Assembly: GCF_964204645.1 (NCBI RefSeq)
Contig: NC_134025.1
Coordinates: 30,906,001-30,970,000, forward strand
From: Tubulanus polymorphus
Lineage: Eukaryota > Nemertea > Palaeonemertea > Tubulaniformes > Tubulanidae
DNA length: 64,000 nt
Reading direction: 5' to 3'
Part shown: positions 1-61,194 of the stretch, piece by piece
How positions within the stretch are numbered: the first letter of the stretch is position 1
How the letters are laid out: each line of letters begins with the position of its first letter
Notes under the pieces: model-generated
The model's input: only the letters and a program-made list of their open reading frames with translations
The model's database searches: none
What the model was told of the DNA's origin: nothing
Translations under genes and position numbers: made by a program

Positions 1-1926
1 GAGGCGAGGGAGGTTGAGGCGAGGGAGGTTGAGGGAGGGAGGTTGAGGCGAGGGAGGTTGAGGGAGGGTGGTTGAGGCGAGGGAGGTTGAGGCGAGGGAG
101 GTTGAGGCGAGGGAGGTTGAGGGAGGGAGGTTGAGGCGAGGGAGGTTGAGGCGAGGGAGGTTGAGGCGAGGGAGGTTGAGGGAGGGAGGTTGAGGGAGGG
201 AGGTTGAGGGAGGGTGGTTGAGGCGAGGGAGGTTGAGGCGAGGGAGGTTGAGGGAGGGAGGTTGAGGGAGGGAGGTTGAGGGAGGGTGGTTGAGGCGAGG
301 GAGGTTGAGGCGAGGGAGGTTGAGGGAGGGTGGTTGAGGCGAGGGAGGTTGAGGCGAGGGAGGTTGAGGGAGGGAGGTTGAGGGAGGGTGGTTGAGGTGA
401 GGAAGGTTGAGGGAGGGAGGTTGAGGGAGGGAGGTTGAGGGAGGGAGGTTGAGGGAGGGAGGTTGAGGGAGGGAGGTTGAGGGAGGGTGGTTGAGGCGAG
501 GGAGGTTGAGGCGAGGGAGGTTGAGGGAGGGTGGTTGAGGCGAGGGAGGTTGAGGCGAGGGAGGTTGAGGGAGGGAGGTTGAGGGAGGGAGGTTGAGGGA
601 GGGTGGTTGAGGTGAGGAAGGTTGAGGGAGGGAGGTTGAGGGAGGGAGGTTGAGGCGAGGGAGGTTGAGGCGAGGGAGGTTGAGGGAGGGAGGTTGAGGC
701 GAGGGAGGTTGAGGGAGGGAGGTTGAGGCGAGGGAGGTTGAGGCGAGGGAGGTTGAGGGAGGGAGGTTGAGGCGAGGGAGGTTGAGGGAGGGAGGTTGAG
801 GCGAGGGAGGTTGAGGGAGGGTGGTTGAGGCGAGGGAGGTTGAGGCGAGGGAGGTTGAGGCGAGGGAGGTTGAGGCGAGGGAGGTTGAGGGAGGGAGGTT
901 GAGGCGAGGGAGGTTGAGGCGAGGGAGGTTGAGGGAGGGAGGTTGAGGCGAGGGAGGTTGAGGGAGGGAGGTTGAGGCGAGGGAGGTTGAGGGAGGGAGG
1001 TTGAGGCGAGGGAGGTTGAGGGAGGGAGGTTGAGGCGAGGGAGGTTGAGGGAGGGAAGTTGAGGCGAGGGAGGTTGAGGCGAGGGAGGTTGAGGCGAGGG
1101 AGGTTGAGGCGAGGGAGGTTGAGGCGAGGGAGGTTGAGGGAGGGAGGTTAAGGGAGGGAGGTTGAGGCGAGGGAGGTTGAGGGAGGGAGGTTAAGGGAGG
1201 GAGGTTGAGGCGAGGGAGGTTGAGGGAGGGAAGTTGAGGCGAGGGAGGTTGAGGCGAGGGAGGTTGAGGCGAGGGAGGTTGAGGCGAGGGAGGTTGAGGC
1301 GAGGGAGGTTGAGGGAGGGTGGTTGAGGCGAGGGAGGTTGAGGCGAGGGAGGTTGAGGCGAGGGAGGTTGAGGCGAGGGAGGTTGAGGGAGGGAGGTTGA
1401 GGCGAGGGAGGTTGAGGCGAGGGAGGTTGAGGGAGGGAGGTTGAGGCGAGGGAGGTTGAGGGAGGGAGGTTGAGGCGAGGGAGGTTGAGGGAGGGAGGTT
1501 GAGGCGAGGGAGGTTGAGGGAGGGAGGTTGAGGCGAGGGAGGTTGAGGCGAGGGAGGTTGAGGCGAGGGAGGTTGAGGGAGGGAGGTTGAGGGAGGGAGG
1601 TTGAGGGAGGGTGGTTGAGGCGAGGGAGGTTGAGGCGAGGGAGGTTGAGGCGAGGGAGGTTGAGGGAGGGAGGTTGAGGCGAGGGAGGTTGAGGGAGGGA
1701 GGTTGAGGCGAGGGAGGTTGAGGGAGGGAGGTTGAGGGAGGGAGGTTAAGGGAGGGAGGTTGAGGGAGGGAAGTTGAGGCGAGGGAGGTTGAGGCGAGGG
1801 AGGTTGAGGGAGGGAGGTTGAGGGAGGGAGGTTGAGGGAGGGAGGTTAAGGGAGGGAGGTTGAGGCGAGGGAGGTTGAGGGAGGGAGGGAGGTTGAGGGA
1901 GGGAGGTTAAGGGAGGGAGGGGAGAG
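1..1926. repeat. G-rich 14/15-bp minisatellite
   Basis: Over 120 tandem units of about 14-15 bp alternate between two main forms, GAGGCGAGGGAGGTT and GAGGGAGGGAGGTT, with a few variants (TGGTT, AAGTT, TTAAGG). The plus strand has almost no C outside CG, and runs of GGGAGGG give it G-quadruplex potential. The array lies just beyond the last visible exon of URB1, so it is probably inside a URB1 intron. The Pro/Leu-rich frame on the other strand is a translation of the repeat and not a gene. Confidence 0.97.
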
Positions 1927-2353
1927 GACTTCAACGTTTCAAGTTATCAGTAGATGTTGTATCTAAAAAGTGTTTACTTTCCACACTAAAATATCATGTT
2001 ATGAACTAATGTTGTGATGAAAGGTTTTTATTTTTTATAATTCATATTTTAAAGAGTTGATAAATATATTAAATATATTGGTGCTTCAAAAATTGATAGT
2101 TTAGTTGTATTAACTTCAACATCAATGCAGTGAGGGCCTCTCAGGGTTATTTTAGTGGGTTTGAGGTTTCTTTTTCCCCTCAACCATCTGAGCTCTACTC
2201 CAAGACATTATCAGCAGATTTGAAGTTTCCTTTTCCTGATTAATGGGGAGAGAGACCAGAGATACACCTTCAACACCAGAAAACTCATCCCTCATGAACC
2301 AGTGAAAGAGCAATGTTTAAACTCTCTCTCTCTTTGTCACTGGTAGAAATTAC
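1927..2353. other. non-coding stretch, probably URB1 intron
   Basis: AT-rich unique sequence between the minisatellite and the last visible URB1 exon. I looked on the minus strand for the next URB1 exon, which should continue the conserved block after the YDPCFLL motif, and did not find it. Nothing else is recognisable. Confidence 0.5.
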
Positions 2354-22563: not shown

Positions 22564-22713
22564 TCAGCCATCCACGCGGACGAGACTAAGACGTTGTCGA
22601 CTATGCGATTTTGTCTTCACAAGACCAAGTAATTCTTCATCATCATCAATATCTTCAGCCCAAACTCCGATCAACAACACGGCGATAAGAAGCAAACACA
22701 AGAGAACCTTCTT
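22564..22713 (-). pseudogene. secreted-peptide family member A, start codon lost
   Basis: The frame from 22713 encodes a signal-peptide-like segment ending in LLIGVWAEDIDDDEE, plainly the family prepro region. The family's GGCGCTATGAAGGTT start context reads GGCGCAAAGAAGGTT here, so the initiator ATG has become AAG; no nearby upstream in-frame ATG is seen. The frame stops at 22564 after about 49 codons, without a clean Lys-Arg site. I call it a pseudogene. The 3' flank shares a short duplication (CATGGTTT-GGTAGCTGCTG) with the end of MRPL23. Confidence 0.75.
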
Positions 22714-23757
22714 TGCGCCGCCTGTCTGGGGATATTTATATTTAGAAAACTATAGAGTTCCAATAACGAATAGGCGTGTAATGATTTGTACCGTGGTCAA
22801 GAATCGACTAAGAGTCAGGATCGAGATCGACTAATGTGATCATGTGATCGTGGCCAAAAAGTTGACGTGGTTTCAATCAAATAAATCTTCAAAATTTTAT
22901 CTCGTAAATTACAGTGTGCGATTTTACCTGTTTTGCTGATGTTTATTCACGTTTCACGTATTGAAGCTGCTGTCATCGATTCCTGTGATGATATCGTCGT
23001 CTTACACACAACCGCACATTTTATACAGTTGCATAATAATCCTTACCATCAGTATTTTTTACTGCATAATTCCAGTTTAATGAATAATGTATCAGTATAT
23101 TTCTTATGGGCATATTATAATACATTATTAGAACATAACTACAATATTTCCTTTGAAGTAATTGTTTAAGATAAATTCGTTGCTAAAAAGTAAATCCTGC
23201 GGCAGCCGCAGCTGCGTTATTTGATACATATTATTAAAGTATAAATCAATGGATTTATGTTTGATGAATTATATAAGAGGTTTATTTAGTCTAACGATTT
23301 ATTTAAAATCAAGACTTATAAAAGTATTCGTTTTTACTAGATCAAAAACTAGCATTTGAAAAAAATTTCGCTGTAATAACTTTCTGCTAAAAGTAACTTC
23401 CAGGCTGGATGGAAATCGTCTACACGAACCGGAACCTAAATTTCCGTATATCATGTATTTAGATTGAAACAAAAAAAATTCGTAGCAACCAAGGGATATA
23501 AATTTCTTTATTTGTCAACATCCAGAAATCTTCTCGTGCCCTTGCTGACACCATGACAAACATTAAGGTGTTATACTACTACGTTTATATCTGGATCCAG
23601 TTCCCAGTCGTGAGTTCAGATTTGACTCAGAGTTGTTAACTTATTGCAAATTAACTCATTTTAACTCAAGAGTTAACTCTAACTCACAACTGTGGAAATG
23701 TGTCCAGTACTTCAATTTCTGTTATCCAAATCTAAGTCCTTGTATCGGCATTCCCGG

Positions 23758-23759
<2 letters not shown>
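22714..23759. other. spacer between peptide members A and B
   Basis: AT-rich sequence without a credible gene. A phrase at about 23380-23470 (TTTCTGCTAAAAGTAACTTC, then CAGGCTGGATGGAAAT) recurs at about 25160-25260, so part of this is duplicated along with the peptide array. Confidence 0.5.
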
Positions 23760-23855
<96 letters not shown>

Positions 23856-23861
23856 TCTGTG
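23760..23861. repeat. GT microsatellite passing into GTGC repeat
   Basis: About 16 copies of the dinucleotide GT followed by about 15 copies of the tetranucleotide GCGT. The Cys/Val and Ala/Arg frames across it are repeat translations. Confidence 0.97.
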
Positions 23862-24022
23862 ACTGGTTGGTTTGATTATGAAATCAATAGAATCAATCAA
23901 AATCACCCGTATGCAAAGTTCGAAGAAACTTCTATTACTAAAAAAACTAAATTCAAAATTAATTTGTTTAATGTGAATTTGTTAAAACATTTCAATTACA
24001 TCAATTACTTATTGGATTGTAA

Positions 24023-24241
24023 TTATATCGATTTGATATCCATTTGTTTCTTCCCCTGTAGCAGCGTTTTCGCGGGTTTAACTGGTAGTTTTGCAAATTT
24101 TGGATTATTTTTCCGCTTGAACGACGAAAAGTTGTTCCATGACCTCTTCACATCAGTAACTTCTTCATCATCGTCATCTATCTCTTCTGCCCAAACTCCA
24201 ATCAATAACACGGTTACAACGAGACACCAGAAAACCTTCAT
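24023..24241 (-). CDS. secreted peptide precursor, family member B
   Basis: 72 residues, family unknown to me. Residues 1-18 are a signal peptide beginning MKVFWCLVV, and cleavage is expected after VWA. An acidic propeptide (EEIDDDDEEVTD) ends in VKR at about residue 33, a prohormone-convertase-type site. The predicted mature part is basic, Lys/Asn/Pro-rich and Cys-free, and contains GKK near residue 65, a cleavage-plus-amidation signal, followed by a 7-residue tail. The ATG sits in the family context GGTGCGATGAAGG just after a TAG acceptor; a non-coding exon with donor at 24572 and a TATA box near 24648 lie upstream. It could be antimicrobial, signalling or venom-like; the sequence does not decide. 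Confidence 0.8.
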   Translation of the reverse strand: MKVFWCLVVTVLLIGVWAEEIDDDDEEVTDVKRSWNNFSSFKRKNNPKFAKLPVKPAKTLLQGKKQMDIKSI

Positions 24242-24572
24242 CGCACCGCCTATTGGTGAAGAATAACGTTAAATACATTATTAACCGTACGTATATAAAA
24301 GGTTTGACACTAGAAATCACAAAATTTGAGTTCCGAAAGTAAAAATATTGGAATTAATCCAAATAGTCGCTGTTAGAATAATACAGCCATCATTAGGTAT
24401 ACTTGAACCTGTCAGTCACCCAGCTGAAAACTTGTGGAACTTTGACTCATATTATTTCCAGGCAGGAATTTTTATTTGAACATAGATTTGCGTTTATAAA
24501 TCTAGCAGATATTGTTACTGTTTCTACTTTAAGATCATCAAAACTCATATGAAGCCTTTATTGAATTCCTAC

Positions 24573-24651
24573 CTTTCCTCTCCTGGATTTTCACACAAAT
24601 AAGAAGCTGAAATCTTCTGTGATTTTCTCTTCATGTCAGCTGTTTTTATAC
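24573..24651 (-). promoter_or_regulatory. type-2 promoter and non-coding exon 1 of member B
   Basis: On the minus strand TATAAAAAC (about 24644-24650) is followed by a transcribed segment ending in GGAAAG|GTAGGAATTC, a splice donor. Nearly identical blocks are at 27514-27592 (member E) and 33320-33400. The intron to the coding exon would be about 320 bases. Confidence 0.65.
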
Positions 24652-24984
24652 TTTTCCAGATATTGTTTATTTATGAGGAGATTAATCAAACTCGCAGTCG
24701 TTTTATTTGAGTTTAATTCCAGTTTGATGAATGTTAGTCATATTTTAGTGTTTTTGCAATAAATCCGACATTATAGTATTAGATGTTCATTTGAAGTCAA
24801 TCTCTTATATAGATTTGCAGATGTTTTCAATTTCCCCCGAAAGATGAAGTTAATCATCCTCTGGCGGCTGTTGTCATAACACGTGTTTATATTATATAGT
24901 ATATTTTAAATGAAATATTGAACCTAAATTCATTGCATGAACTGTTTCTGCTGAAATCGGCGCCAAGCTAGCCACTCGGGCACC

Positions 24985-25015
24985 TATGGATCCTAACACC
25001 AGTTCGTTCGTCATC
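24985..25015 (-). pseudogene. decayed scrap of a peptide-family propeptide
   Basis: The minus strand reads GCTGATGACGAACGAACTGG and on into GTT, resembling the acidic-Asp-Glu-Arg-Thr-Asp-Val segment of member E. No signal peptide is left next to it. Confidence 0.4.
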
Positions 25016-25639
25016 AGCAGCTTCCATCAGAACGTTCCTTTTACGCGACTCAAACTCCATTGGATTTTTGTGTGATAAATTATTGATATGAGAGGTTTTT
25101 TCTTGAGCTCTTTAAAATGGAGGTACTTTTTATTAAGACATTTGAAAAAAACTGCACCGTAAGAACTTTCTGCTAAAAGTATGTAACTTCCAGGCTCGGC
25201 GGAAATTGTTGACATGAACTGGAACCGAAATTTCCAAATATGTTGTCTTTCGATTGAAACAAAAAATTCTGTAAATTTCACTTATTATCCAAATTCAGCA
25301 GTCTATGACCTGGAGCATTGGTACGTGTTGCGGCACGTTCGAATCAAGAGGAAAGTTTCACCTTGGGTTCGATCGAACATGAGATAGGGTTAGGGTTAGC
25401 CAGCTGTCGTTTCCCAAACAACAAGTTGCATGGGAACCCGCACCTGAAGCCCCGGTATCAAAACAGAAAAAGAGAATTAAATCAGCGTTCATTAATTTCA
25501 TCAAGCGATTAGATTCCTAAATTCATTGCATAAACTGGTAAATATTCGTCAACTGTTTTTCGACGGCCCGGGTAAAACCAGTTGAGTACCGGTAAAATGT
25601 TAGCCTCTCGGGGGTTTAATCTCCTGAAACATGTCTCCT

Positions 25640-25850
25640 AACATCAGTCCGTTCATCATTAGAGTCAGCATTTTCAACCAAAACGTTTCTTTCGCGGTGG
25701 CTCGATGCTCTAAGTATTCTAAGTATCTGGTTCAGGCAGCTACACGGGGACCCGTGAGAGTTCAACATCAGAATTATCGCCTGCCCAAACCCCATCCACC
25801 ATTAACACGGCAATGAACAAACACAAAAACAATTTCCTTCGTTCCTATTT
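25640..25850 (-). pseudogene. decayed peptide-family remnants
   Basis: Two pieces. At 25748-25850 the minus strand keeps a hydrophobic segment ending GVWAGD, but the ATG is ACG and the frame is shifted right after it. At about 25640-25680 an acidic stretch equivalent to DSNDERTDV remains. Together they look like one or two dead members between B and D. Confidence 0.55.
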
Positions 25851-25870
25851 GAGGACATTGTGAAATAAGA

Positions 25871-26190
25871 AACGGCCCAACAAATAGCGTAGTTGACTCT
25901 CAGGCCGTGGCATGCGGCCCACCTCGTCGCGTAGTTGACTCTCAGACCGTGGCATGCGGCCCACCTCGTCGCGTAGTTGACTCTCAGACCGTGGCATGCG
26001 GCCCACCTCGTCGCGTAGTTGACTCTCAGACCGTGGCATGCGGCCCACCTCGTCGCGTAGTTGACTCTCAGACCGTGGCATGCGGCCCACCTCGTCGCGT
26101 AGTTGACTCTCAGACCGTGGCATGCGGCCCACCTCGTCGCGTAGTTGACTCTCAGACCGTGGCATGCGGCCCACCTCGTCGCGTAGTTCA
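25871..26190. repeat. 42-bp tandem repeat, seven copies
   Basis: Seven near-identical copies of a 42-bp unit containing GTGGCATGCGGCCCACCTCG followed by TCGCGTAGTTGACTCTCAGA. Because 42 is divisible by three, frames on both strands stay open across the array, giving artificial repeat proteins. Copies are almost identical, so expansion or homogenisation is recent. It lies inside the peptide-gene cluster, next to a decayed member. Confidence 0.95.
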
Positions 26191-26330
26191 CTTTGCAATC
26201 CGTGGCTAGAAGTTTTAGGCAGTACTCTTAAAGATAGAAGTGGTAAAATGAATTGAAACCTGTGATTAAAATCGTCAGAATTTGAGATAGATAATCTTTA
26301 ATGTTCAATGTGGATTTATTTACCACAGGT

Positions 26331-26549
26331 TTAACAGAACGGAGGGCAACGAGTTCGATTAAACAGCATTGCCCAGAAATCGACGTCTGATAAACGGCGG
26401 ACGAGGCCAAGAGCTCGGTGCCGAGGATTCATTTTCCTCTACATAACATCAGTTATTTCATCATCGGTATCGTCATCAGTTTCTTCAGTTTCTTCAGCCC
26501 AAATTCCTAACAAAACGGCACCAAGCACCAAATATAGGAGAACCTTCAT
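26331..26549 (-). pseudogene. secreted-peptide family member D, nonsense at processing site
   Basis: The ATG at 26547-26549 opens a good family prepro segment (signal peptide ending LLGIWA, then a Glu/Asp/Thr-rich propeptide). After 36 codons a TAG at 26439-26441 occupies the place of the Lys in the conserved Lys-Arg site. The same frame then stays open to a TAA at 26331 and would have been a basic, Cys-containing mature part. A family-type AATAAATCCACATT signal follows at about 26307-26320. One substitution separates it from an intact gene, so it may be a recent null allele. No upstream promoter of either family type was seen. Confidence 0.75.
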
Positions 26550-26834
26550 CGCGCTACCTATTGGGGATATCAGAAAACAGCCAGACTAGTGTAAGGTGTA
26601 TAGCGTTACTCGTAGTGTTGGGTCTCAGGCTTTTGCGCCTTTTGGTTCAGAATAAACACTGGAGATATCACAATGGCGAAACCATTGAGAGGAAATCATC
26701 CGCATTTCAAGGTCGAAAATAACTCCTATTATTAAAGAACTTAATTCAAAATTTAACGTTTAATGTGAATTTATTAGACATTTCAATTACATCGCTTACT
26801 TATTGAAATGTAATTACGTAAATTCGATGTTCAT

Positions 26835-27101
26835 TTATTTCTTTCCCTGTTGCCGCATTCTCTCGATCTGGTCGAGGACAAACTGCGGTATAGGATGAGG
26901 AAAGTTGGGTGCAACTGGTAAGAAATCAGTTTCTGGAACGTATGTCCGCGAATTCGGCCACTGCATATGGAACCGTGTGCCATCTGGCAGAATAAACCTC
27001 TTCTTTACATCAGTTCGTTTATCATCAGAATCATCATTAAACTCTTCTGCCCAAACTCCAACCAATAACACGGTTACAACGAGACACCAGAAAACCTTCA
27101 T
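26835..27101 (-). CDS. secreted peptide precursor, family member E
   Basis: 88 residues. I chose the ATG at 27099-27101 (MKVFWCLVVT) over an in-frame one at 27164, because the latter lies in the presumed 5' intron. A signal peptide (about 1-19) is followed by an acidic segment with an early dibasic KR and then VKKR at about residues 32-35. The mature part of about 53 residues is Pro/Phe-rich and Cys-free, with FPHPIPQF near its centre, and ends in GKK at the C-terminus, a typical amidation signal. Type-2 promoter at 27514-27592; AATAAA-type signal with GTGAATTTATTAG at about 26774. It is the longest mature peptide of the array and shows no similarity to the others after the processing site. 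Confidence 0.82.
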   Translation of the reverse strand: MKVFWCLVVTVLLVGVWAEEFNDDSDDKRTDVKKRFILPDGTRFHMQWPNSRTYVPETDFLPVAPNFPHPIPQFVLDQIERMRQQGKK

Positions 27102-27513
27102 AGCGTCAACTGTTGATGAAAGAATATCGTTAAATGCATTATTTACATGAATAAGAAGTTTCACACTAGATTAGAAAAAGATTCAGAAAGAAGAAATATT
27201 AGAATGGAACCAAATAGTTTTGTAGCGGTTGAAATAATACAGCCATCCCGAGGTGTACATAGTCACCCAGCTGAAACGTTATGGAACTTATCAAAATCAT
27301 TCCTCGTAAATCGCAGTATGAGAATTTTCATTTTATCAGCATAAATGTGTTCATAAATCTAATAGCAGATATTTTTACTGTTACTACATTAAGATTATCA
27401 AAACACAGATGCAACTTCTAAACAGGATGTCTAAAAATGTGTAGTTATAGTCGATGTTCATATTACCAGTAAATGAATTAAGAATCGGGTAAAACAACGA
27501 GTAGAATTCCTAC

Positions 27514-27592
27514 CTTTTCTCTCCTGGATTTTCACACAAATAAGAAGCTGAAATCTTCTGTGATTTTCTCTTCCTATCAGCTATTTTTATAC
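27514..27592 (-). promoter_or_regulatory. type-2 promoter and non-coding exon 1 of member E
   Basis: Near-copy of the block at 24573-24651: TATAAAAAT on the minus strand (27584-27592), then an exon ending GAAAAG|GTAGGAATTC. The flanking 27190-27800 is duplicated from, or to, 24340-24840 and 33095-33620. Confidence 0.65.
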
Positions 27593-28032
27593 TATTCCTG
27601 ATATTGGTTTATTTATGAGGAGATTTATCTCGCATTGGTTTTATCAGAGTTTAACTCCAGTTTAATGAATGCATTTATTACAGTCTAGTGTCTTTGCAAT
27701 AAATCCGACATTAAAGTATTAGAAATGTTCGTTTGAAGTAAATCTCTTATATAGATTTGCAGATATTTTCAATTATCCCCGAAAGATTCGGTTAATCTTC
27801 CTCTCGCAGCTGTGTGGTTTTTGCAGGTGTTATTTTTATATTAATAGTAAGTATATGTTCATGTATGATGAAATATTTTATTTAGTGTACGTGTCACGAA
27901 GAAAGAGTTCACTGAGGTTGAGATGAACAATCCATAAGTGGTTTGTTTTGGGAAACCAAGATCTGAACGATGAAAACAAGATAAAACAACAACAACAAAT
28001 TACAAACAAATGGCGGTACACCAGACAGATCT

Positions 28033-28183
28033 TTACCGTCACGTGCTGCCGCTATGTATAACATTAACGGAGAATATGCGAACTAACCTGAAATGGGAAT
28101 TTGTGAACTGTGGCACGCGAGAAATCATTTAGTTCACAATTTCACCGTCAATGTTTTATAGAGGGGCAGCACGAGACGGTGGA
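28033..28183. repeat. inverted-repeat element
   Basis: Arms of about 40 bp: ACCGTCACGTGCTGCCGCTA on the left pairs imperfectly with TAGAGGGGCAGCACGAGACG on the right. Small non-autonomous hairpin element between members E and F. Confidence 0.6.
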
Positions 28184-28561
28184 GAACGATTGAAATCCTT
28201 TTTCCTGCTGTGGCATGCGAGTAATAAAGATACTTCGCCTCCGGGCACGTCATACTGAAATCTGGAACTTTCCGAAAAGCACTCAACCAAAGAATGAAAT
28301 GGTTGAATGAATTGAATCCTATAAAGAACTTAAGAATGTTATGGATATATTTGCTGAGTTATATTCAAATGAAAACTTCAATAGAAATGGTCACTTAGAT
28401 AAATTGAATTCAACGATTAGAAAATTCAAACCGAACATTTTAAATTTTTAATGTGGATTTATTAATCATTGAAGTTACACGTCGATTGACACTTGACGTG
28501 TTTTTATATATGCGTCTTTCATTTCCCAGGCAAAGTACCGGGGATCTTCTCCCCAAAACGC

Positions 28562-28771
28562 TCAGCGGCCGCGGCACGACAGCCAGAGAATTAGAGGTTT
28601 CCCGGGTGGAGGACGAGGTTTCGACCGTGACCTTGGCCAGCAGCGGCGTAATGTCATCCTCTTCACAACTTCATCGGTAATTTCATCATCATCAGCATCA
28701 TCGTCAATCTCTCCTGCCCAAACTCCGATCAATAACACAGTAACAAAAACCAGACACCAGAAAGCCTTCAT
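28562..28771 (-). CDS. secreted peptide precursor, family member F (Arg/Pro-rich)
   Basis: 69 residues beginning MKAFWCLVF. The signal peptide ends VWAG and the acidic propeptide is Asp-rich and ends in VVKR at about residue 38. The predicted mature peptide of about 31 residues is strongly basic (TLRRCWPRSRSKPRPPPGK at its start), has two Cys about 19 apart that could form one disulfide, and ends in GR, an amidation signal. The composition resembles Arg/Pro-rich antimicrobial peptides, but there is no homology I can name. Conserved 3' signal AATAAATCCACATT at about 28450-28463; type-1 promoter at 28997-29064. Confidence 0.82.
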   Translation of the reverse strand: MKAFWCLVFVTVLLIGVWAGEIDDDADDDEITDEVVKRMTLRRCWPRSRSKPRPPPGKPLILWLSCRGR

Positions 28772-28996
28772 AGCGCCACCTGTGAGGACGAAACATTACC
28801 AATCATGTTTTGGTGATGTCTCATCTCAATGTTCACATGACCAATTTAAGAGTACCGCTAGATTACTTTGGGCCCCAAAATATTCCTTGGATATCAAGGA
28901 TACGGGATTTAGACCCTTCGAAAATTCGTTTCTATTTTTTTTCAAATCGCTCCTGCCTCAATCGGTCGCTGAGTAGATAACTAAAACAACCCTTAC

Positions 28997-29064
28997 CTGA
29001 ACTGCGAGATGTTTTCACAAACAGTCAATATTATCAACTTCTTATGAAATTGAATTTATAAAGT
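28997..29064 (-). promoter_or_regulatory. type-1-like promoter and non-coding exon 1 of member F
   Basis: Minus strand TATAAATTCA at about 29051-29060, then an exon ending GTTCAG|GTAAGGGT. It is more diverged than the copies of members G, H and J but has the same layout. Confidence 0.55.
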
Positions 29065-29691
29065 TCTTTCCTAATCTTCCCTGATCGTGTTTTATCTATG
29101 TTAATAGTGAATCTATTGAAACAGTGTAATTCCAATTGGATTAATTCGTTTTTCGCTCATTGAGAATAAATGTTAAAATGACAGTGATTAATTACTTTGT
29201 GAATGTAGTATTTAGAAAACCAATTGAAAGGTGATTAAACTCTGAATGAAGATTTGCTGTGAAGGTATCCGTGATTTTACAACTTAATCCTCCTTTGATT
29301 CAACACGTGTAACTCATTTTCTTGAATATTGCATGATTTTATATTATCGTTATAGCACGGACTCAAAACTATTTCATCAATGGTTATTTGCGTTAATGTA
29401 TTTCATCATTTAATTCAATTTATTTTATATTCATATCAGTTCTCACGGTTTTTAAACTCAGTTGGAAATGAATTGAGGAACTCAACTTGGTGTCAACTTA
29501 AACTTGGGGTTAAAGCTGATACCAGCCTATAAAACTGGGCCGAGAATTTTGGACAATGCCATTATACCAAAGATAAAGTTTGAATGAACCCATTCATGAA
29601 AAAATATCATAACAAAGATTTTAAAAGTTTGAGTTCAACAAACCCTTGACGCGTTTATTTTCTATCGATGTTCTATCTCCAAGGACCAAAT

Positions 29692-29949
29692 TCAAGCTGT
29701 GGCCATTGCCGGAACGCAATACCAGAAATCAGAAAAAAGGTGTTGCCCGAGATTGAGTGCACGATACGCGCGAAATGGACCCTGATGTTTCACTATCGGA
29801 CTTGACCATTTGCAGCGGTGGCGGGGTAATTGTGTCATCAACCTCTTCACAATATCGGATGATTCTTCATTAGAATCATCGACAATCTCTTCTGCCCAAA
29901 CTTCGATCAACAACGCAGCAACAAGAACCGAACTCCAGAAAACCTTCAT
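29692..29949 (-). CDS. secreted peptide precursor, family member G
   Basis: 85 residues from the family-context ATG at 29947-29949; an in-frame ATG upstream at 30063 falls in the 5' intron and exon 1 and is not used here. The signal peptide is the most diverged of the intact ones (MKVFWSSVLVAALLIEVWA). The acidic segment ends IVKR at about residue 36. The mature part of about 49 residues has two Cys (HRCKW and WYCVP), many aromatic residues, and no amidation signal; its C-terminal Ala/Met tail looks unlike the others and may reflect a shifted frame or a lost stop. Promoter of type 1 at 30033-30096. Confidence 0.72.
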   Translation of the reverse strand: MKVFWSSVLVAALLIEVWAEEIVDDSNEESSDIVKRLMTQLPRHRCKWSSPIVKHQGPFRAYRALNLGQHLFSDFWYCVPAMATA

Positions 29950-30032
29950 AGCGCCACCTATTGATGAATGAATATCGATGCAGTGGACCCTAAATCGATC
30001 ACAGGAGCAGAAAACGGAAACAAAACCCTTAC

Positions 30033-30096
30033 CTGTTAGAAACTGAGCTGTTTTTACAACCACTCTGTATTCTCTCAGCTTCAGCGGAATATATAC
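30033..30096 (-). promoter_or_regulatory. type-1 promoter and non-coding exon 1 of member G
   Basis: Minus strand TATATATTCCGC at about 30084-30095, then a segment with CTGAGAGAATACAG and the exon end TCTAACAG|GTAAGGG. Almost identical to the block of member H; the intron to the coding exon is about 75 bases. Confidence 0.7.
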
Positions 30097-30503
30097 GGTT
30101 TTTCTTAATCTTCCTAAATCCCTTTAATCCCGTAATCTTAGAAACAGCGAGAAAACTAATCGAGTTTAATCCCAGATAGATTCCAATTTGATGAATCTAT
30201 TTTTGGCTTATTGAAAAAATTACGGTGAATGAAGTATTTAGAAAATCAATAGGAGACGATTAAATTAAACTACAAATATAGGTTTGTTGTGAAGATTTCT
30301 CTAATTTCACAACTAATCTTTTCTTGAAAAATGTTCTCACTGAGAACTGTCGAACTGGTTCCATTCTGATATTCGCCTTATTTTTGGCAGTTAAGAAAGA
30401 TATAATGGAAAAAAAATCCTGTTAAGAAAAAAGTCAAATGTTAAATTTTTAATGAGGATTTATTAAACATTTGACATCGATTGACACTTCTTCAAATGTT
30501 GAT

Positions 30504-30737
30504 TTATTTCCTTCCCGAAGCTTTCTTCTTGTACAAAGGACCAGGCCATGGACCAGGACCCGGTGGCCAGGGATGTGGGGGACGTGGCCAGGGAAATGGA
30601 AGAGGCCATGGCCAGTCAGGAGGTAGTGTTAACCTCTTCACAACATCAGTTATTTCATCATCCGAATCATCGACGATATCTTCAGCCCAAACTCCAATCA
30701 ACAACACAGCAACAACTAAACACCAGAAAACCTTCAT
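30504..30737 (-). CDS. secreted peptide precursor, family member H (Trp/Pro-rich)
   Basis: 77 residues: signal peptide (MKVFWCLVVAVLLIGVWA), acidic propeptide, VVKR at about residue 35. The mature part of about 42 residues is very unusual: five Trp and about half Pro in a repeating Trp-Pro pattern (DWPWPLPFPWPRPPHPWPPG), then a short Lys-rich end finishing in GRK, an amidation signal. Cys-free. Compositionally it recalls indolicidin/tritrpticin-type antimicrobial peptides, which are short, Trp/Pro-rich and amidated; this is analogy only. TATA and exon 1 at 30827-30890; 3' signal AATAAATCCTCATT at about 30450-30463. Confidence 0.83.
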   Translation of the reverse strand: MKVFWCLVVAVLLIGVWAEDIVDDSDDEITDVVKRLTLPPDWPWPLPFPWPRPPHPWPPGPGPWPGPLYKKKASGRK

Positions 30738-30826
30738 AGCGCCACCTATTAAGGATAGAAGATGTTCAAGGATATTTCGGTGGTCCCTAAATCGTTGGCG
30801 AGAGCAGAAAACCGAAAAACCCTTAC

Positions 30827-30890
30827 CTGCTAAAAACTGAGCTGTTTTTACAACCAGTCTGTATTCTCTCAGCTTCAGCGGAATTTATAC
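30827..30890 (-). promoter_or_regulatory. type-1 promoter and non-coding exon 1 of member H
   Basis: Minus strand GTATAAATTCCGC (TATA at about 30883-30889), then exon 1 ending TTTAGCAG|GTAAGGG. The intron is about 80 bases, with the acceptor CTTAATAG just before GTGGCGCTATG. Confidence 0.72.
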
Positions 30891-31218
30891 GGTTTTTTCT
30901 TAATCTTCCTAAATCCCTTTAATCCCGTAATTTTAGAAACAGCGAGAAAAATAATCGAGTTTAATCCCAGATAGATTCCAATTTGATGAATCTGTTTTGG
31001 GCTTATTGAAAATAGATGATAAAATGACAGTGAATTATTAGTAATCTAATGGAGGTTGATTTAATTCTATATCCAGATTTGTTGTGGAGATTTCCATGAT
31101 TTTACAGTTAATTCTCACTTGAAATATGTACTCAATTTTACACGTGTTGTTTGTCTGTTTTAGTCGTTTTTTTTTCCGTATAGCTCAAAAGTAGATGAAG
31201 TTTTTGTTTTCACGCGAG

Positions 31219-32306
31219 TAATTATTCCACATCCCCTCTTCACATCCCTCTCTTCACATCCCCCTCTTCACATCCCCCTCTTCACATCCCTCTCTTCACA
31301 TCCCTCTCTTCACATCCCTCTCTTCACATCCCCCTCTTCACATCCCCCTCTTCACATCCCCCTCTTCACATCCCTCTCTTCACATCCCTCTCTTCACATC
31401 CCTCTCTTCACATCCCCCTCTTCACATCCCTCTCTTCACATCCCCCTCTTCACATCCCCCTCTTCACATCCCCCTCTTCACATCCCCCTCTTCACATCCC
31501 TCTCTTCACATCCCTCTCTTCACATCCCTCTCTTCACATCCCCCTCTTCACATCCCCCTCTTCACATCCCCCTCTTCACATCCCCCTCTTCACATCCCTC
31601 TCTTCACATCCCTCTCTTCACATCCCTCTCTTCACATCCCTCTCTTCACATCCCCCTCTTCACATCCCTCTCTTCACATCCCCCTCTTCACATCCCCCTC
31701 TTCACATCCCTCTCTTCACATCCCTCTCTTCACATCCCCCTCTTCACATCCCTCTCTTCACATCCCTCTCTTCACATCCCTCTCTTCACATCCCTCTCTT
31801 CACATCCCTCTCTTCACATCCCCCTCTTCACATCCCTCTCTTCACATCCCTCTCTTCACATCCCTCTCTTCACATCCCTCTCTTCACATCCCTCTCTCCA
31901 CATCCCTCTCTTCACATCCCTCTCTTCACATCCCTCTCTTCACATCCCCCTCTCCAAAGCCCTCTGTTCACATCCCCCTCTTCACATCCCTCTCTTCACA
32001 TCCCTCTCTTCACATCCCTCTCTTCACATCCCTCTCTTCACATCCCTCTCTTCACATCCCTCTCTTCACATCCCCCTCTTCACATCCCCCTCTTCACATC
32101 CCTCTCTTCACATCCCTCTCTTCACATCCCTCTCTTCACATCCCTCTCTTCACATCCCTCTCTTCACATCCCCCTCTCCAAAGCCCTCTGTTCACATCCC
32201 CCTCTTCACATCCCCTCTCTTCACATCCCTCTCTTCACATCCCTCTCTTCACATCCCCCTCTCCACATCCCTCTCTTCACATCCCTCTCTTCACATCCCT
32301 CTCTTC
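31219..32306. repeat. 14-bp minisatellite between members H and I
   Basis: About 77 copies of TCTTCACATCCCYC, almost pure pyrimidine on the plus strand apart from ACA. C/T variants alternate in blocks. One diverged block with CCAAAGCCCTCTGTT occurs twice (about 31955 and 32175), showing segmental duplication inside the array. Confidence 0.96.
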
Positions 32307-32495
32307 TCATTTAGCCTGGATTACAGGATCCGTTCGAGGGCTAAACTCGAACAATTGAATTGACCATCTTTGTTTACGTAAGTTGATACAAATGTACATA
32401 ACCGGGCCGAGATCTTCTCGCAGTTCTATATCAAAGATAGAAATTGTTACTTTGATAAATTGAATTCAACGATTAGAAAATTCAAACCCAACATT

Positions 32496-32732
32496 TCAGA
32501 TTTTTAATGTGGATTTATTAATCATTGAAGTTACACGTCGATTGACACGTGTATATTTTTTGTCTGGCTCCGGTTCATCGGTCGGTCGAGGACATGGCTT
32601 GTACCAGGGGCAGCGCCAGGCTATTTTTCCTCTCTTCACAATAATACCACGTTTATCAATAGAATCAACGTCAGTCCCTTCAGGCCAAACTCCAATCAAT
32701 AACACGGCAACAACAACGAGACACCTCCGCAT
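32496..32732 (-). CDS. secreted peptide precursor, family member I (re-started)
   Basis: 78 residues from an ATG at 32730-32732 lying inside a 68-bp tRNA-like insertion. The original family ATG (32804-32806) is intact but is followed after five codons by a TGA brought by the insertion. From the new ATG the frame rejoins the family at the sixth codon (CLVVVAVLLIGVW), so a shorter hydrophobic leader (MRRCLVVV) is still encoded. The usual AE after VW is PE. The propeptide has DKR and VKR sites; the mature part carries C-x5-C (RCPWYKPC) and further dibasic sites. Expression is uncertain, because translation would need re-initiation or leaky scanning. It could equally be a pseudogene. Confidence 0.6.
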   Translation of the reverse strand: MRRCLVVVAVLLIGVWPEGTDVDSIDKRGIIVKRGKIAWRCPWYKPCPRPTDEPEPDKKYTRVNRRVTSMINKSTLKI

Positions 32733-32793
32733 AGCTCAGCCACGACTGTCTATAAGTACGGCGCGCTAACCGATTGTGCCACTGGGGCTCACC
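32726..32793 (-). mobile_element. tRNA-Ile(UAU)-like 5' fragment inserted in member I
   Basis: The minus strand reads GCCCCAGTGGCACAATCGGT then TAGCGCGCCGTACTTATA, matching the acceptor, D arm and anticodon half of tRNA-Ile(UAU), with a short anticodon-loop intron-like stretch and a truncated 3' half. CACC flanks both sides, once at 32722-32725 and once at 32790-32793, as a possible 4-bp target duplication. The uninterrupted site is preserved in member J. It may be a retroposed tRNA piece or the head of a truncated SINE. Confidence 0.8.
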
Positions 32794-32899
32794 AGAAAAC
32801 CTTCATAGCGCCACCTATTGGTGACGAAACAACGTAATCGATAATATTTCAGTGAGGTCTCGCGCCTCAATCGGTCACAGCAGCAGAATACAGAAAAAC

Positions 32900-32965
32900 T
32901 GTTAAAAACTGAACTGTTATCACAACCAGTCTGTCTATCGTCAGTTTCAGCAGAATTTTATAATG
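32900..32965 (-). promoter_or_regulatory. type-1 promoter of member I, donor lost
   Basis: TATAAAATTC and the exon-1 body are recognisable, but where members G, H and J have AACAG|GTAAGG this copy reads AACAGTTTTTCTG: the GT donor has been deleted. Splicing to the coding exon from here should fail. Confidence 0.6.
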
Positions 32966-33319
32966 TTTCCCTCAATCCGAATTCTCTACAATCTTTATTA
33001 ATGGAGACTTTTTTTGTTTCAGCTGAGAAGAAAAGTTGATCAATATTTTATTTCAATCAATGAAAAAGCCAATAATGTATTGCAATGAAATTAAATCGTT
33101 TTGTAGCTGTTAAAATAGATAGAATTGAACCTGTTAGTCACCAGCTGAAACGTTATGGTACTCATTAAAATCATTCCTCGTAAATCGCAGCATGAGAATG
33201 ATATTTCATTTCATCAGCAAATAACAGAGATTTGAGTTTATAAATCCAATATCAGATATTTCTGCTGTTTCTGCATTAACATCATCAAAACTCATATGAA
33301 GCCTTTATTCAATTCCTAC

Positions 33320-33400
33320 CTTTTCTCTGCTGGATTTTCACACGAATAAGAAGCCGATGTCTTCTGTGATTTTCTCCTCCTATCAGCTATTCTTATGCAA
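33320..33400 (-). promoter_or_regulatory. extra type-2 promoter/exon 1 between members I and J
   Basis: Copy of the exon-1 block of B and E, ending GAAAAG|GTAGGAATTG. Its TATA box is degenerate (GCATAAGAA). No ORF lies between it and member I, so it could drive I across an intron of about 510 bases, or be a leftover of a deleted gene. Confidence 0.5.
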
Positions 33401-33904
33401 TTCCTGATAATGTTTATTTGAGGAGATTTATCTCGCATTGGTTTTATCAGAGTTTAACTCCAGTTTAATGAATGAATTTATCACATTCTAGTGTCTTTGC
33501 AATAAATCCGACATTATAGTATTAGAAATGTTCATTTGAAGTAAATCTCTTATATAGATTTGCAGATATTTTCAATTTTCCCCGAAGGATTAAGTTTATC
33601 TTCATCTCGCAGCTGTTGTCACTACACGTCTTATTCTTATATTACATAATAGTTTATTTTCATGTGCGATGAAATATAGTGTTTTATTACGTGTCATGAC
33701 GAAAGAGTTCACTGAAGTTAGAGTTGTTTAAAGTTGATACCAATGTACATAACCGGGTCCAAATCTTTGTTCGTTCTATATAGAAAATGGTTACTCAGAT
33801 AAATTGAATTCAACGATTAGAAAAAAATTCAAACCAAACATTTTAAATTTTTAATGTGGATTTATCAAACATTTTGAGTTACATCCACTGACACAATCAC
33901 GTGT

Positions 33905-34096
33905 TTATGTTTTTTTTGCTGTCTTGTACCAATGCCGACAATATGGCCACCACCAGCAGCGGTGGCGGCGCTGTTGATGTTGTCTTGCCATCCTAACAAG
34001 ATCACCTGATTCATCACCAGAATCATCATCAATCTCTTCAGCCCAAACTCCAATCAATAACACGGCAACAACAACGAGACACCAGAAAACCTTCAT
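33905..34096 (-). CDS. secreted peptide precursor, family member J (Trp-loop)
   Basis: 63 residues: signal peptide (MKVFWCLVVVAVLLIGVWA), acidic propeptide with DDDSGDESGD. The usual VVKR is reduced to LVR, so processing at the first site would rely on one Arg or on the following basic residues. The mature region is short and basic with RRHRCWWWPYCRHWYK near its centre: a C-x5-C loop holding three consecutive Trp, flanked by Arg/His. This is the strongest antimicrobial-looking peptide in the array by composition. No terminal Gly. Type-1 promoter at 34198-34263; the 3' signal is the variant GATAAATCC. Confidence 0.82.
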   Translation of the reverse strand: MKVFWCLVVVAVLLIGVWAEEIDDDSGDESGDLVRMARQHQQRRHRCWWWPYCRHWYKTAKKT

Positions 34097-34197
34097 AGCG
34101 CCACCTATTGGTGATGAAACAACGTAATCAATAATATTTCAGTGAGGTCTCGCGCCTCGATCGGTCACAGCAGCAGAAACAGAATAACAAGCCTTAC

Positions 34198-34263
34198 CTG
34201 TTAAAAACTGAGCTGTTATCACAACTAGTCTGTATTGTATCAGTTTCAGCGGAAATTTATACT
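34198..34263 (-). promoter_or_regulatory. type-1 promoter and non-coding exon 1 of member J
   Basis: Minus strand GTATAAATTTCCGC (TATA at about 34255-34261), exon end TTTAACAG|GTAAGGC. The intron is about 92 bases to the acceptor CACCAATAG before GTGGCGCTATG. Confidence 0.72.
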
Positions 34264-59826: not shown

Positions 59827-61194
59827 TTCACAACTTGCGAATTTTCTTGTTAAGTAGAACTAGGACGAAACTTATTGATGCACAAAAATAATTCAGTATG
59901 AAGCGGAAATGTATTATTAGTATCTGTATTCGATTGTCAATTTTGTTGTTTTTAGATCGCTTTCAGTAGACAATTGTGGGACTGGATCCTGACTTGAGAA
60001 ACGGGTCCAGAAACTAGACCCATGGTTTCTAATAGTAGGCTCAAGCAAAAGTAAGCACTCTTCAGCAATTTTGTTGTTCAATTTGTCTCCGGACCCAGTT
60101 CCACAGTGGGTTTGATTCTCCTTGGGCCCAGTTCTACAGTTGGTTAATTGATTCTCTCTGGACCCAGTTCTACAGTTGTGTTTAATTTGACTCTAAATCC
60201 AGTACAGTTATGTGGGTTTAATTTGATTCTGGGTCCAGTTCCATTGTGTGGGCTTCATGTCGATTGTAACAATTTTTCAAGAGTCCAGAATACAAATAAC
60301 CGAAAAAAAAACATATTTAAGGCAATAGTTTCTAATCGTAAAAATCACTTGAAATGAGATAATAGGTGTCATTAACATAAATAATTAACTGACGATAATT
60401 GATAGAGGGTTGATAGAAAATATAGACATATAATCTCACATATTGAGGTTTCTAGAACAACTAGTCTGAAACACAAATCAGTTTCATCGCAACTTCAAAT
60501 GAGGTAAGTTTTCAATACTGCAGACATGCATATATAAATCTTGGTTCATTGAATCATGGCCTCGAAAACGAATCAAAGAACTTCTAATCATTGATTGATA
60601 GCTGCTATTGTTATAGTGAATAGTCACGTGCATAGAGTCGCCACGCCTGACTGGTCACCAGTCTACAGACTGACCAGACAAACTTACGGAGTCATAGTAA
60701 CTCTATGGTCTAGCGGTAGACACTCTGGGTTTACAGCTGGGAAGCCTTGGTTCGAGTCCCAACAGACCTATTTAAAGTTCTAATCGACCATTAGTTATTT
60801 TGTGTAAAGGTTTTTTTGACAAACTAACGAAACTCTTCTGTAATTCAGCGGTTAGAGCGTCCACTACCTTTTTTTGGAGTGAAGGAAAGCTATTGATGTG
60901 TCTTATGTTAGTCGAAATTCTCAAACTATCAAAAAGCATCAGGTTTCAGCAACCAGTGTCGGTGCCAATGGGAACTCGAGTTGAACTATATTTTCACTGA
61001 TCCGGAATCGACTGAAACAAATATCATCTTGACCCGATTCTTGTTATCAGATACCTTCCAAAAATGGGACACATCCGTTTCGGAACATTCTGGGTCAGAG
61101 ATTGAAATAAACTGTTGTCTCATCTTTCTATCATCTATCTCTCTCTCCCTGTTTCTAACAGACACAGCACTTCAGTATATAGGTACTGGTAATC
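59827..61194. other. spacer between LicD gene and Cys-loop receptor
   Basis: Contains clustered CCCAGTTCCACAGT phrases (60085-60240) and a tRNA-like segment (listed separately). No gene recognised. Confidence 0.6.
60706..60769 (+). repeat. tRNA-derived SINE-like sequence
   Basis: TGGTCTAGCGGTAGACACTC (A-box-like) and GGTTCGAGTCCC (good B box) are enclosed by GGTCT and AGACC, which could pair as a short acceptor stem. The total is about 62 bases and the anticodon arm is irregular, so a tRNA pseudogene or SINE head is more likely than a working tRNA gene. Preceded by CGCCTGACTGGTCACCAGTC, shared with the 50816 copy. Confidence 0.6.

Follow-up and report, generated by a model that had tools for sequence, protein, structure and literature searches.

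The locus analyzed here raises the question of what is encoded by a series of short minus-strand reading frames that share a leader and vary behind it. Judged from the DNA, it is fairly likely that they encode secreted host-defence (antimicrobial-type) peptides and form a multigene family confined to one lineage. The architecture is already known; the family is new.

Organization and copy number of the array

The original prediction, made for the window (the whole stretch of 64,000 nucleotides that was analyzed), comprised a minus-strand array with seven intact ORFs, the pseudogenes A and D, and scraps. A DNA profile scan and ORF listing confirmed the array and revealed ten copies of a single coding exon at positions 22,564–34,263 of the minus strand. 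Both pseudogenes and one weak scrap (C) were found, but only six ORFs (B, E, F, G, H, and J) were clean, because the seventh, I, is altered by a tRNA-derived insert. The features are as follows:

34198..34262, minus strand: promoter and predicted noncoding exon 1 of copy J, TATA at about 34261, donor GT at 34197
33905..34096, minus strand: copy J, intact precursor ORF of 63 aa, mature part MARQHQQRRHRCWWWPYCRHWYKTAKKT with two Cys in a C-x5-C loop; a single Arg replaces Lys-Arg; TATA 165 nt upstream, donor CAG/GTAAGG
32724..32791, minus strand: insert in copy I, 68 nt corresponding to the 5′ portion of a tRNA-Ile(UAU) gene with an intron
32496..32732, minus strand: copy I, altered ORF that starts inside the insert and reads over its own AATAAA
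30504..30737, minus strand: copy H, intact ORF of 77 aa; mature part Trp/Pro-rich, without Cys, C-terminal GRK (amidation-type)
29692..29949, minus strand: copy G, intact ORF of 85 aa; two Cys in the mature part
28562..28771, minus strand: copy F, intact ORF of 69 aa; mature core RRCWPRSRSKPRPPPGKP, two Cys
26835..27101, minus strand: copy E, intact ORF of 88 aa; no Cys in the mature part, which has a net charge of +1 and a C-terminal GKK
26331..26549, minus strand: copy D, pseudogene, cleavage site interrupted by TAG; mature relic of class 1; TATA/donor pair not detected within 1 kb
25740..25847, minus strand: copy C, leader scrap with stops; weak profile match (E 0.057)
24023..24241, minus strand: copy B, intact ORF of 72 aa; no Cys in the mature part, which has an internal GKK followed by seven further residues (QMDIKSI)
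22564..22713, minus strand: copy A, pseudogene that has lost its start codon and has KT in place of the dibasic site; mature relic of class 1

The insert of copy I lies after codon 5 and introduces a TGA stop as well as a further ATG. The 68 nt are matched with 100% identity at four other places in the genome, and all bases except the first are identical to those of intron-containing tRNA-Ile(UAU) genes. When introns were allowed in the tRNA search, 5 of 5 relatives of the insert were called tRNA-Ile, whereas the same search without introns returned four undetermined and one Leu. Rfam yielded nothing within the window or around copy I. Copy I is probably not functional.

Searches of the 268-Mb genome indicate 17 copies at three loci. 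Six of these (A, C, D, K2c, K2d, and K2e) contain stops or frameshifts, have lost the start codon, or are scraps. The AGGTGGCGCDATGAAGG pattern, with at most one mismatch allowed, matched the whole genome 11 times, each time in the array or at one of the two sister loci. A control pattern matched only once, and thus the distribution of AGGTGGCGCDATGAAGG is not due to chance.

Gene structure and conservation of the leader

In the clean precursors, the signal peptide is followed by an acidic spacer, in most cases by a dibasic site, and then by a short mature peptide of 26–53 residues that is mostly cationic and often Trp-rich. The predicted conservation of signal peptide and acidic propeptide was borne out by a mean column identity of 74% over eight leaders, six of them from the window. 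The leaders had further been described as nearly identical even in codons, which is too strong, as silent sites differ. Averaged over 36 pairs of nine copies, pS was 0.35 and pN 0.16, and from these values we conclude that the leader is constrained. The predicted Lys-Arg site is usual but not universal. KR or RR is present in 9 of 11 ORFs, the exceptions being J, with its single Arg, and C7b, a copy outside the window that has none.

A shared 5′ intron had also been proposed. It is indicated by an upstream TATA box and an AG/GT donor together with an AG acceptor just 5′ of the start codon, but the first exon, which is predicted from sequence, comes in three types and not one. Of the 13 copies examined, 10 (all except I, D, and C7a) have a TATA box and a splice donor together with the predicted noncoding exon. 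No kappaB-like site was found in the 1 kb upstream of any of the 13 copies. The 3′ signal AATAAATCC, likewise proposed to be shared, is exact in F, I, D, K2a, and H only, and is varied elsewhere.

An intron starting at the cleavage site, which would render the mature parts intronic, was considered and rejected. Although H, G, E, and B have a GT directly after the site, it is missing in F, J, D, K2a, and C7a, and the mature parts carry coding signatures.

Divergence of the mature parts

According to the original prediction, the copies share nothing past Lys-Arg. This holds for several pairs, in which the similarity of intron and flank reaches the cleavage site and then ends, whereas J/I, J/G, and H/F extend beyond it. 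The identity of H/G is 80% over 520 columns and that of J/H 72% over 546 columns, and both alignments stop no more than 7 nt from the cleavage codon. E/B is 73% identical over 429 columns and resumes near the C terminus with 78% over 176 columns. Among the nine window pairs examined, the alignment covered 0–4 nt of the mature part in five and the last 28 nt in E/B. In the other three, 44 of 75 (J/I), 24 of 33 (J/G), and 20 of 26 (H/F) aligned positions were identical. Outside the window, the mature part of K2a/K2b is at least as conserved as the flanks (109 of 124 identical; dN 0.13, dS 0.18). The flanks of the K2 and C7 copies were compared among the matches listed, those of the window copies in full. 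A lenient global alignment of the segments gave 73% for the mature parts and 71% for shuffles. Conserved leaders and hypervariable mature parts are supported, with the qualification that mature DNA is related in several copies and is partly frame-shifted.

Reading-frame switching between sister copies

In sister copies outside the window, the same mature DNA is read in different frames. At the DNA level, a frame switch was detected for K2a, K2b, and D versus C7b and for C7a versus C7b, and in each case 0 of 1000 codon shuffles were as good. The bases aligned one frame apart were 69/75 for K2a/C7b, 67/72 for K2b/C7b, 27/42 for D/C7b, and 32/32 for C7a/C7b. At the protein level, K2a, K2b, and D matched C7b in the shifted frame only (0/500), and for C7a versus C7b no frame was significant (0.456, 0.644, 0.282). 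The evidence for window copies was weaker, with 3 of 1000 shuffles as good for F-C7b, 4 for I-C7b, 13 for K2b-F, 56 for H-C7b, and 203 for H-D. The frame of the pseudogene K2c is fixed by the chosen start, so that K2c represents DNA kinship only. C7b, the ORF on which the case for a second frame mainly depends, lacks a dibasic site.

In three cases, a second coding exon lies about 0.5 kb after a promoter-bearing copy, i.e. E then D, C7b then C7a, and K2b then K2c. D and C7a showed no separate promoter, so that one exon 1 may serve alternative peptide exons. Tentatively, and with considerable doubt, both observations could be joined in one scheme. An ancestral stretch that was cationic in two frames (HQGxxLVRRG and CWPxSWPRPPW) would have formed a dual-coding core, a single small indel past the conserved leader would have sufficed to create a different peptide that is cationic as well, and one exon 1 would be spliced to alternative peptide exons. 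In a limited set of papers on frameshift diversification, we found no account of frame switches between paralogous antimicrobial peptides; toxin variants made by frameshift are reported for spiders (PMC4065081).

Composition of the mature parts and possible function

The mature parts of 11 ORFs, including I, were compared with 2000 nucleotide shuffles; as the ORFs are interrelated, the shuffle counts overstate significance. The summed net charge was +60 versus 31.8 in shuffles (1/2000 as high), and Trp occurred 25 times versus 5.3 (0/2000). The number of Cys was even in 11 of 11 ORFs versus 6.1 in shuffles (6/2000), and in 9 of 9 after removal of I and K2b (15/2000). Each mature part has 0, 2, or 4 Cys, and the framework is not fixed.

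The locus had been proposed to serve immunity, venom, or signalling. A lineage-specific secreted family is retained from this proposal, and composition favours an immune (antimicrobial-type) role over the other two. The nearly neutral mature part of E (+1) speaks against an antimicrobial-type reading, as do the lack of kappaB-like sites upstream of the 13 copies, the three window pairs whose alignment continues into the mature part, and the conserved mature part of K2a/K2b.

Precursors of venom or skin toxins would have the same architecture, but with mature peptides that target channels or receptors in prey or predators and not microbes. With its constant leader, its paired Cys, and mature parts that vary, the family recalls conopeptide precursors, and more members match Conotoxin than any other Pfam family. 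However, the matching members are only 2 of 11, the best match of 17 bits is below the cut-off of 25.1, and the Cys framework varies. Peptides that are rich in Trp, Pro, and Arg and free of Cys are more typical of antimicrobials, and members like H fit these better. A neighbouring LicD-like gene has its best external match in the nemertean Tubulanus polymorphus (34% identity), which would suit a toxin locus; its other placeable named matches are from gastropods. The family thus probably belongs to a lophotrochozoan; a COX1-like query matched nothing. Nemerteans are reported to hold diverse peptide toxins (PMC12846013). On balance, we consider a toxin function rather unlikely.

Neuropeptide or hormone precursors diversified through duplication would explain the signal peptide, the dibasic cleavage, and the amidation-type GRK/GKK in H, E, and B. 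Yet in neuropeptide families it is normally the mature peptide that is preserved while the remainder varies, and the opposite is observed here in most pairs, which makes such an origin improbable. There is a similarly small chance that the array is decaying, with relic leaders, ORFs kept by chance, and mature parts past selection. The broken copies and scraps (6 of 17), the insert in I, and the dN/dS of about 0.7 for K2a/K2b, based on few changes, would agree with decay, but charge, Trp, and Cys parity differ from shuffles, and in most copies the leader is still constrained and the TATA box and splice donor are retained.

For the favoured host-defence function, the following pathway can be envisaged. 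Signal peptidase would cleave after GVWA and a furin/PC-type protease after KR, and until then the acidic spacer would neutralize the basic peptide. Some C termini (GRK, GKK) may be trimmed and amidated, Cys pairs may form disulfides, and the released peptide would target microbes at a surface. Diversity would arise from tandem duplication, segment exchange between copies, and fast change centred on the mature segment, in some lineages also from indels that shift its reading frame. If true, the locus would represent an immune-type peptide family that is new and specific to one lineage, and a single genome would record how variable peptides originate, with leader, intron, and promoter staying alike while the peptide changes. 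The sister copies would offer a testable case of frame switching as a one-step origin of new peptides.

Comparison with known systems

In agreement with the prediction that the leader belongs to no named family, searches of about 5.8 billion proteins revealed no homologue; of 7991 candidates that were scored, not one reached E ≤10. Nothing exceeded the cut-offs in Pfam or, for six proteins, in NCBIfam, and PDB gave nothing beyond chance level. The BRICHOS domain, which characterizes the proregion of BRICHOS antimicrobial precursors, was absent from the Pfam hits at E ≤1. For Conotoxin (PF02950), the best score was that of J, and the two matching members were found at E ≤1 against a curated cut-off. 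Conotoxin superfamilies likewise have conserved leaders and variable mature parts; they differ from the present family, which has no fixed Cys framework.

The original prediction had also drawn an analogy to frog skin precursors. As described in PMC7106915, those of the temporin/brevinin type have a conserved signal, an acidic propiece, and a hypervariable C-terminal mature peptide, and all three are found here, so that the analogy applies to the architecture. The present genes differ in the noncoding first exon, the single coding exon, and the frame switches among sister copies. No homology to frog leaders was seen in the protein database and no frog family among the Pfam hits, both being indirect searches of limited sensitivity. 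The C-x5-C loop of J and I recalls the frog 'Rana box'.

The cnidarian Hydra has arminins and periculins, which are taxon-restricted clustered paralogues, and most Hydra antimicrobial peptides have a bipartite charge (PMC10945409). Compared by description, they resemble the present family in taxon restriction, clustering, and bipartite charge. The Mytilus CRP-I genes (PMC10138031) form clustered paralogues with pseudogenes and have a 5′-UTR-only exon 1, a KR/RR propeptide, a variable mature part, a six-Cys knottin array, and an ORF spread over three exons. The predicted 5′-UTR-only first exon (10 of 13 copies) and the dibasic site (9 of 11 ORFs) are similar here, whereas 0, 2, or 4 Cys in the 11 ORFs and one coding exon are different. 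Myticalins, also from Mytilus, are lineage-specific, clustered, and strongly cationic, with diverse mature peptides and an anionic extension C-terminal of the mature peptide (PMC12294457). The family described here shares lineage specificity, clustering, cationic character, and diversity with the myticalins, but its acidic segment precedes the mature part.

Copies of the gene family in the genome

The assembly comprises 268 Mb in 77 contigs, and the window corresponds to C1:30,906,001-30,970,000. The window and four fetched stretches (L009-L012) were scanned with a leader-exon DNA profile. Copies were found at three loci, and in L011 and L012, on either side of the second array, the profile did not yield a leader-exon match.

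Loci of the family
Window, 22,564-34,263, minus strand: ten copies (J, I, H, G, F, E, D, C, B, A); the match of I is split by an insert, and C is a scrap (profile E 0.057)
C1:21.277-21.280 Mb (L010), outside the window: second array, five copies (K2a-K2e)
C7:6.547 Mb (L009), outside the window: third locus, two copies (C7a, C7b)

All ten window matches were on the minus strand, as the original prediction had stated. Genome-wide protein searches with four queries returned the same three loci and no others, and an IUPAC pattern had 11 matches in the whole genome at these loci, compared with 1 for a control pattern. Because the protein search scores the best candidates only, copy counts are lower bounds, and the genome contains at least 17 copies at the three loci. 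Of these, ten have a clean ORF (J, H, G, F, E, B, K2a, K2b, C7a and C7b), and one, copy I, has an altered ORF. The remaining six (A, C, D, K2c, K2d and K2e) contain stops or frameshifts, have lost the start codon or are mere scraps. Domains matched by neighbouring ORFs were thiolase, C2, LicD, a ligand-gated channel domain and, below its cut-off, Ribosomal_L23 (21.9 versus 30.8). For the LicD-like protein, the best hit outside the genome was from a nemertean (34%), and the other named hits that could be placed came from gastropods; the animal is therefore probably a lophotrochozoan.

Other features of the window
1-2000: strongly G-rich tract (GC 0.637, GC skew 0.875)
25887-26192: 42-nt minisatellite, 7.3 copies at 99%, after pseudogene D
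31228-32310: 14-nt minisatellite, about 77 copies, between copies H and I
60698-60771: tRNA-Val gene, anticodon TAC

The 42-nt minisatellite may be amplified flank, because its unit resembles, by eye, the 3′ flank of the second array.

Copy I carries a tRNA-like insert

Seven intact window ORFs had been predicted, but the number is six, because copy I is not intact. A 68-nt insert (32,724-32,791) after codon 5, within the signal-peptide codons, supplies a stop (TGA) together with a new start (ATG), and the ORF extends through AATAAA. Without its first base, the insert lies in a 68-nt match with 100% identity to four other genomic sites, and two more sites match at 97% over 66 nt. Five of these sites were fetched; with introns allowed, all five were predicted as tRNA-Ile(UAU) genes containing an intron of 18 nt, and otherwise four were left undetermined and one was called Leu. 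The tRNA-Ile(UAU)-like insert looks recent. Judged from the alignments, copy I is also a mosaic of a J-like 5′ end (99 nt, 97%) and an F-like 3′ end (115 nt, 94%), with an E-like promoter flank upstream (198 nt, 94%).

Promoter, exon 1 and leader

A TATA box with an AG/GT donor 63-98 nt downstream preceded 10 of 13 copies examined. For copy I the TATA box was present and the donor was not found, and for D and C7a no such pair occurred within 1 kb. The AG acceptor lies 8 nt 5′ of the start codon. The proposed common 5′ intron is thus predicted for these ten copies, but with three promoter/exon-1 types.

Promoter/exon-1 types
CAG/GTAAGG: J, H, G, F
AAG/GTAGGA: E, B
CAG/GTAAAA: A, K2a, K2b, C7b

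The leader consensus is approximately MKxFWCLVxVAVLLIGVWAEE-(acidic)-KR, and we take its GVWA end, consistent with the -3/-1 rule, to be the signal cleavage point. The Lys-Arg site is part of this consensus, but is not universal: J shows a lone Arg, and C7b lacks a basic residue there. A second coding exon lies about 0.5 kb downstream of the promoter-bearing copies E, K2b and C7b, namely D (E/D, 26331-27591), K2c (L010) and C7a (L009), respectively; of these three, the TATA/donor scan covered D and C7a. Possibly, D, K2c and C7a are alternative exons of these upstream copies. The gene structure of the family is a predicted one throughout.

Kinship and reading frames of the mature parts

The mature parts had been described as sharing nothing after the Lys-Arg. 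When 14 mature pieces were aligned locally as DNA, in 91 pairs with 200 shuffles per pair, this did not fully hold: among the 45 pairs listed, 21 had p<=0.005 and 33 p<=0.05. Mature DNA is related in several members of the family. The class 1 core, read PRHQGxxLVRRG, is common to D, K2a and K2b and is weaker in A and C7a. C7b contains related DNA one frame over, read CWPKSWPRPPW, with 69/75 aligned bases offset by one frame relative to K2a and 67/72 relative to K2b. Pseudogene K2c, whose frame is not defined, also carries class 1 DNA (39/47 identical to K2a). None of 1000 codon shuffles was as good for K2a-C7b, K2b-C7b, D-C7b, K2a-K2c and C7a-C7b. Protein comparisons covered 35 pairs in three frames, and their values are uncorrected for the number of tests. 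In the shifted frame K2a, K2b and D matched C7b (0/500 shuffles), whereas the in-frame values were 0.46, 0.94 and 0.89; C7a and C7b did not match in any of the three frames (0.456, 0.644, 0.282). At the level of predicted reading frames, this shows frame switching between K2a/K2b and C7b.

Links of the window copies were weaker (per 1000 codon shuffles: F-C7b in frame 3, I-C7b 4, K2b-F shifted 13, H-C7b 56, J-I 142, H-D 203). In addition, J and G have RHRC in common, in frame (4/1000), and E and B a QGKK end (0/1000). We infer that frame switching could also be a source of diversity among the window's own copies.

Location of the divergence

Nine window pairs were examined. The alignment of H with G (80% identity, 520 columns) spans promoter, exon 1, intron and leader and breaks off 2 nt beyond the cleavage codon; that of J with H (72%, 546 columns) ends at most 7 nt before it. 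In five pairs (H/G, J/H, F/G, F/E, J/F) only 0-4 nt of the mature part were reached. E/B is 73% identical over 429 columns up to the cleavage point, and similarity resumes from near the C terminus onward (78%, 176 columns), including the last 28 nt of the mature part. Three pairs aligned further (J/I 44/75, J/G 24/33, H/F 20/26 identical). For the majority of the nine pairs, the mature part has thus diverged further than the intron and the flank, and its divergence would exceed neutral change, if introns are neutral. K2a/K2b is a counter-example, with 109/124 identical mature positions (dN 0.13, dS 0.18), compared with 77-83% identity in alignments extending into the flanks.

Composition of the mature peptides

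Eleven ORFs, including I, were compared with 2000 shuffles; the ORFs are related, and therefore the counts are guides, not probabilities. Net charge was +60 versus 31.8 (1/2000 as high), with 76 basic residues versus 56.6 (6/2000) and 16 acidic residues versus 24.8 (62/2000 as low). Trp occurred 25 times versus 5.3 (0/2000), and the Cys count was even in 11/11 ORFs versus 6.1 (6/2000). Without I and K2b, it was even in 9/9 (15/2000), and net charge was +50 versus 25.1 (3/2000). The mature part of E alone is nearly neutral (+1). C-x5-C occurs in both J and I. The mature part of H is rich in Trp and Pro and terminates in GRK; GKK forms the end of E and lies internally in B. Taken together, a constrained secretory leader is joined to a non-random cationic, Trp-rich, even-Cys product. 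The precursor would be processed stepwise, with putative disulfides and amidation, and the mature peptides may be antimicrobial.

Comparison with known families and systems

The prediction that no named family has this leader held within the databases searched. No homologue was found among about 5.8 billion proteins in searches that depend on shared five-residue words (query H, 2 candidates, none with E<=1; 11-sequence profile, 7991 candidates scored, none with E<=10). Pfam had no match above the cut-off for 11 members, only weak ones to Conotoxin (2/11 members), two DUFs, Actin (copy E, 14.5 versus 27 bits) and Penaeidin (one member, E 0.022). NCBIfam gave two weak matches far under the cut-off for six proteins, and PDB matches were at chance level.

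The K2a/K2b-C7b result and the composition tests uphold the overall reading, and the way in which the peptides of the family diversified can be read unusually clearly from its sequences. Frame change per se has a precedent, because frameshift-derived variants of spider toxins are described (PMC4065081). Apparently, the family is new and restricted to its taxon, and belongs to an already known kind of system. Its architecture matches that of frog skin precursors (PMC7106915), as originally proposed, and of mussel CRP-I (PMC10138031), whereas the segment order differs from that of the myticalins (PMC12294457).
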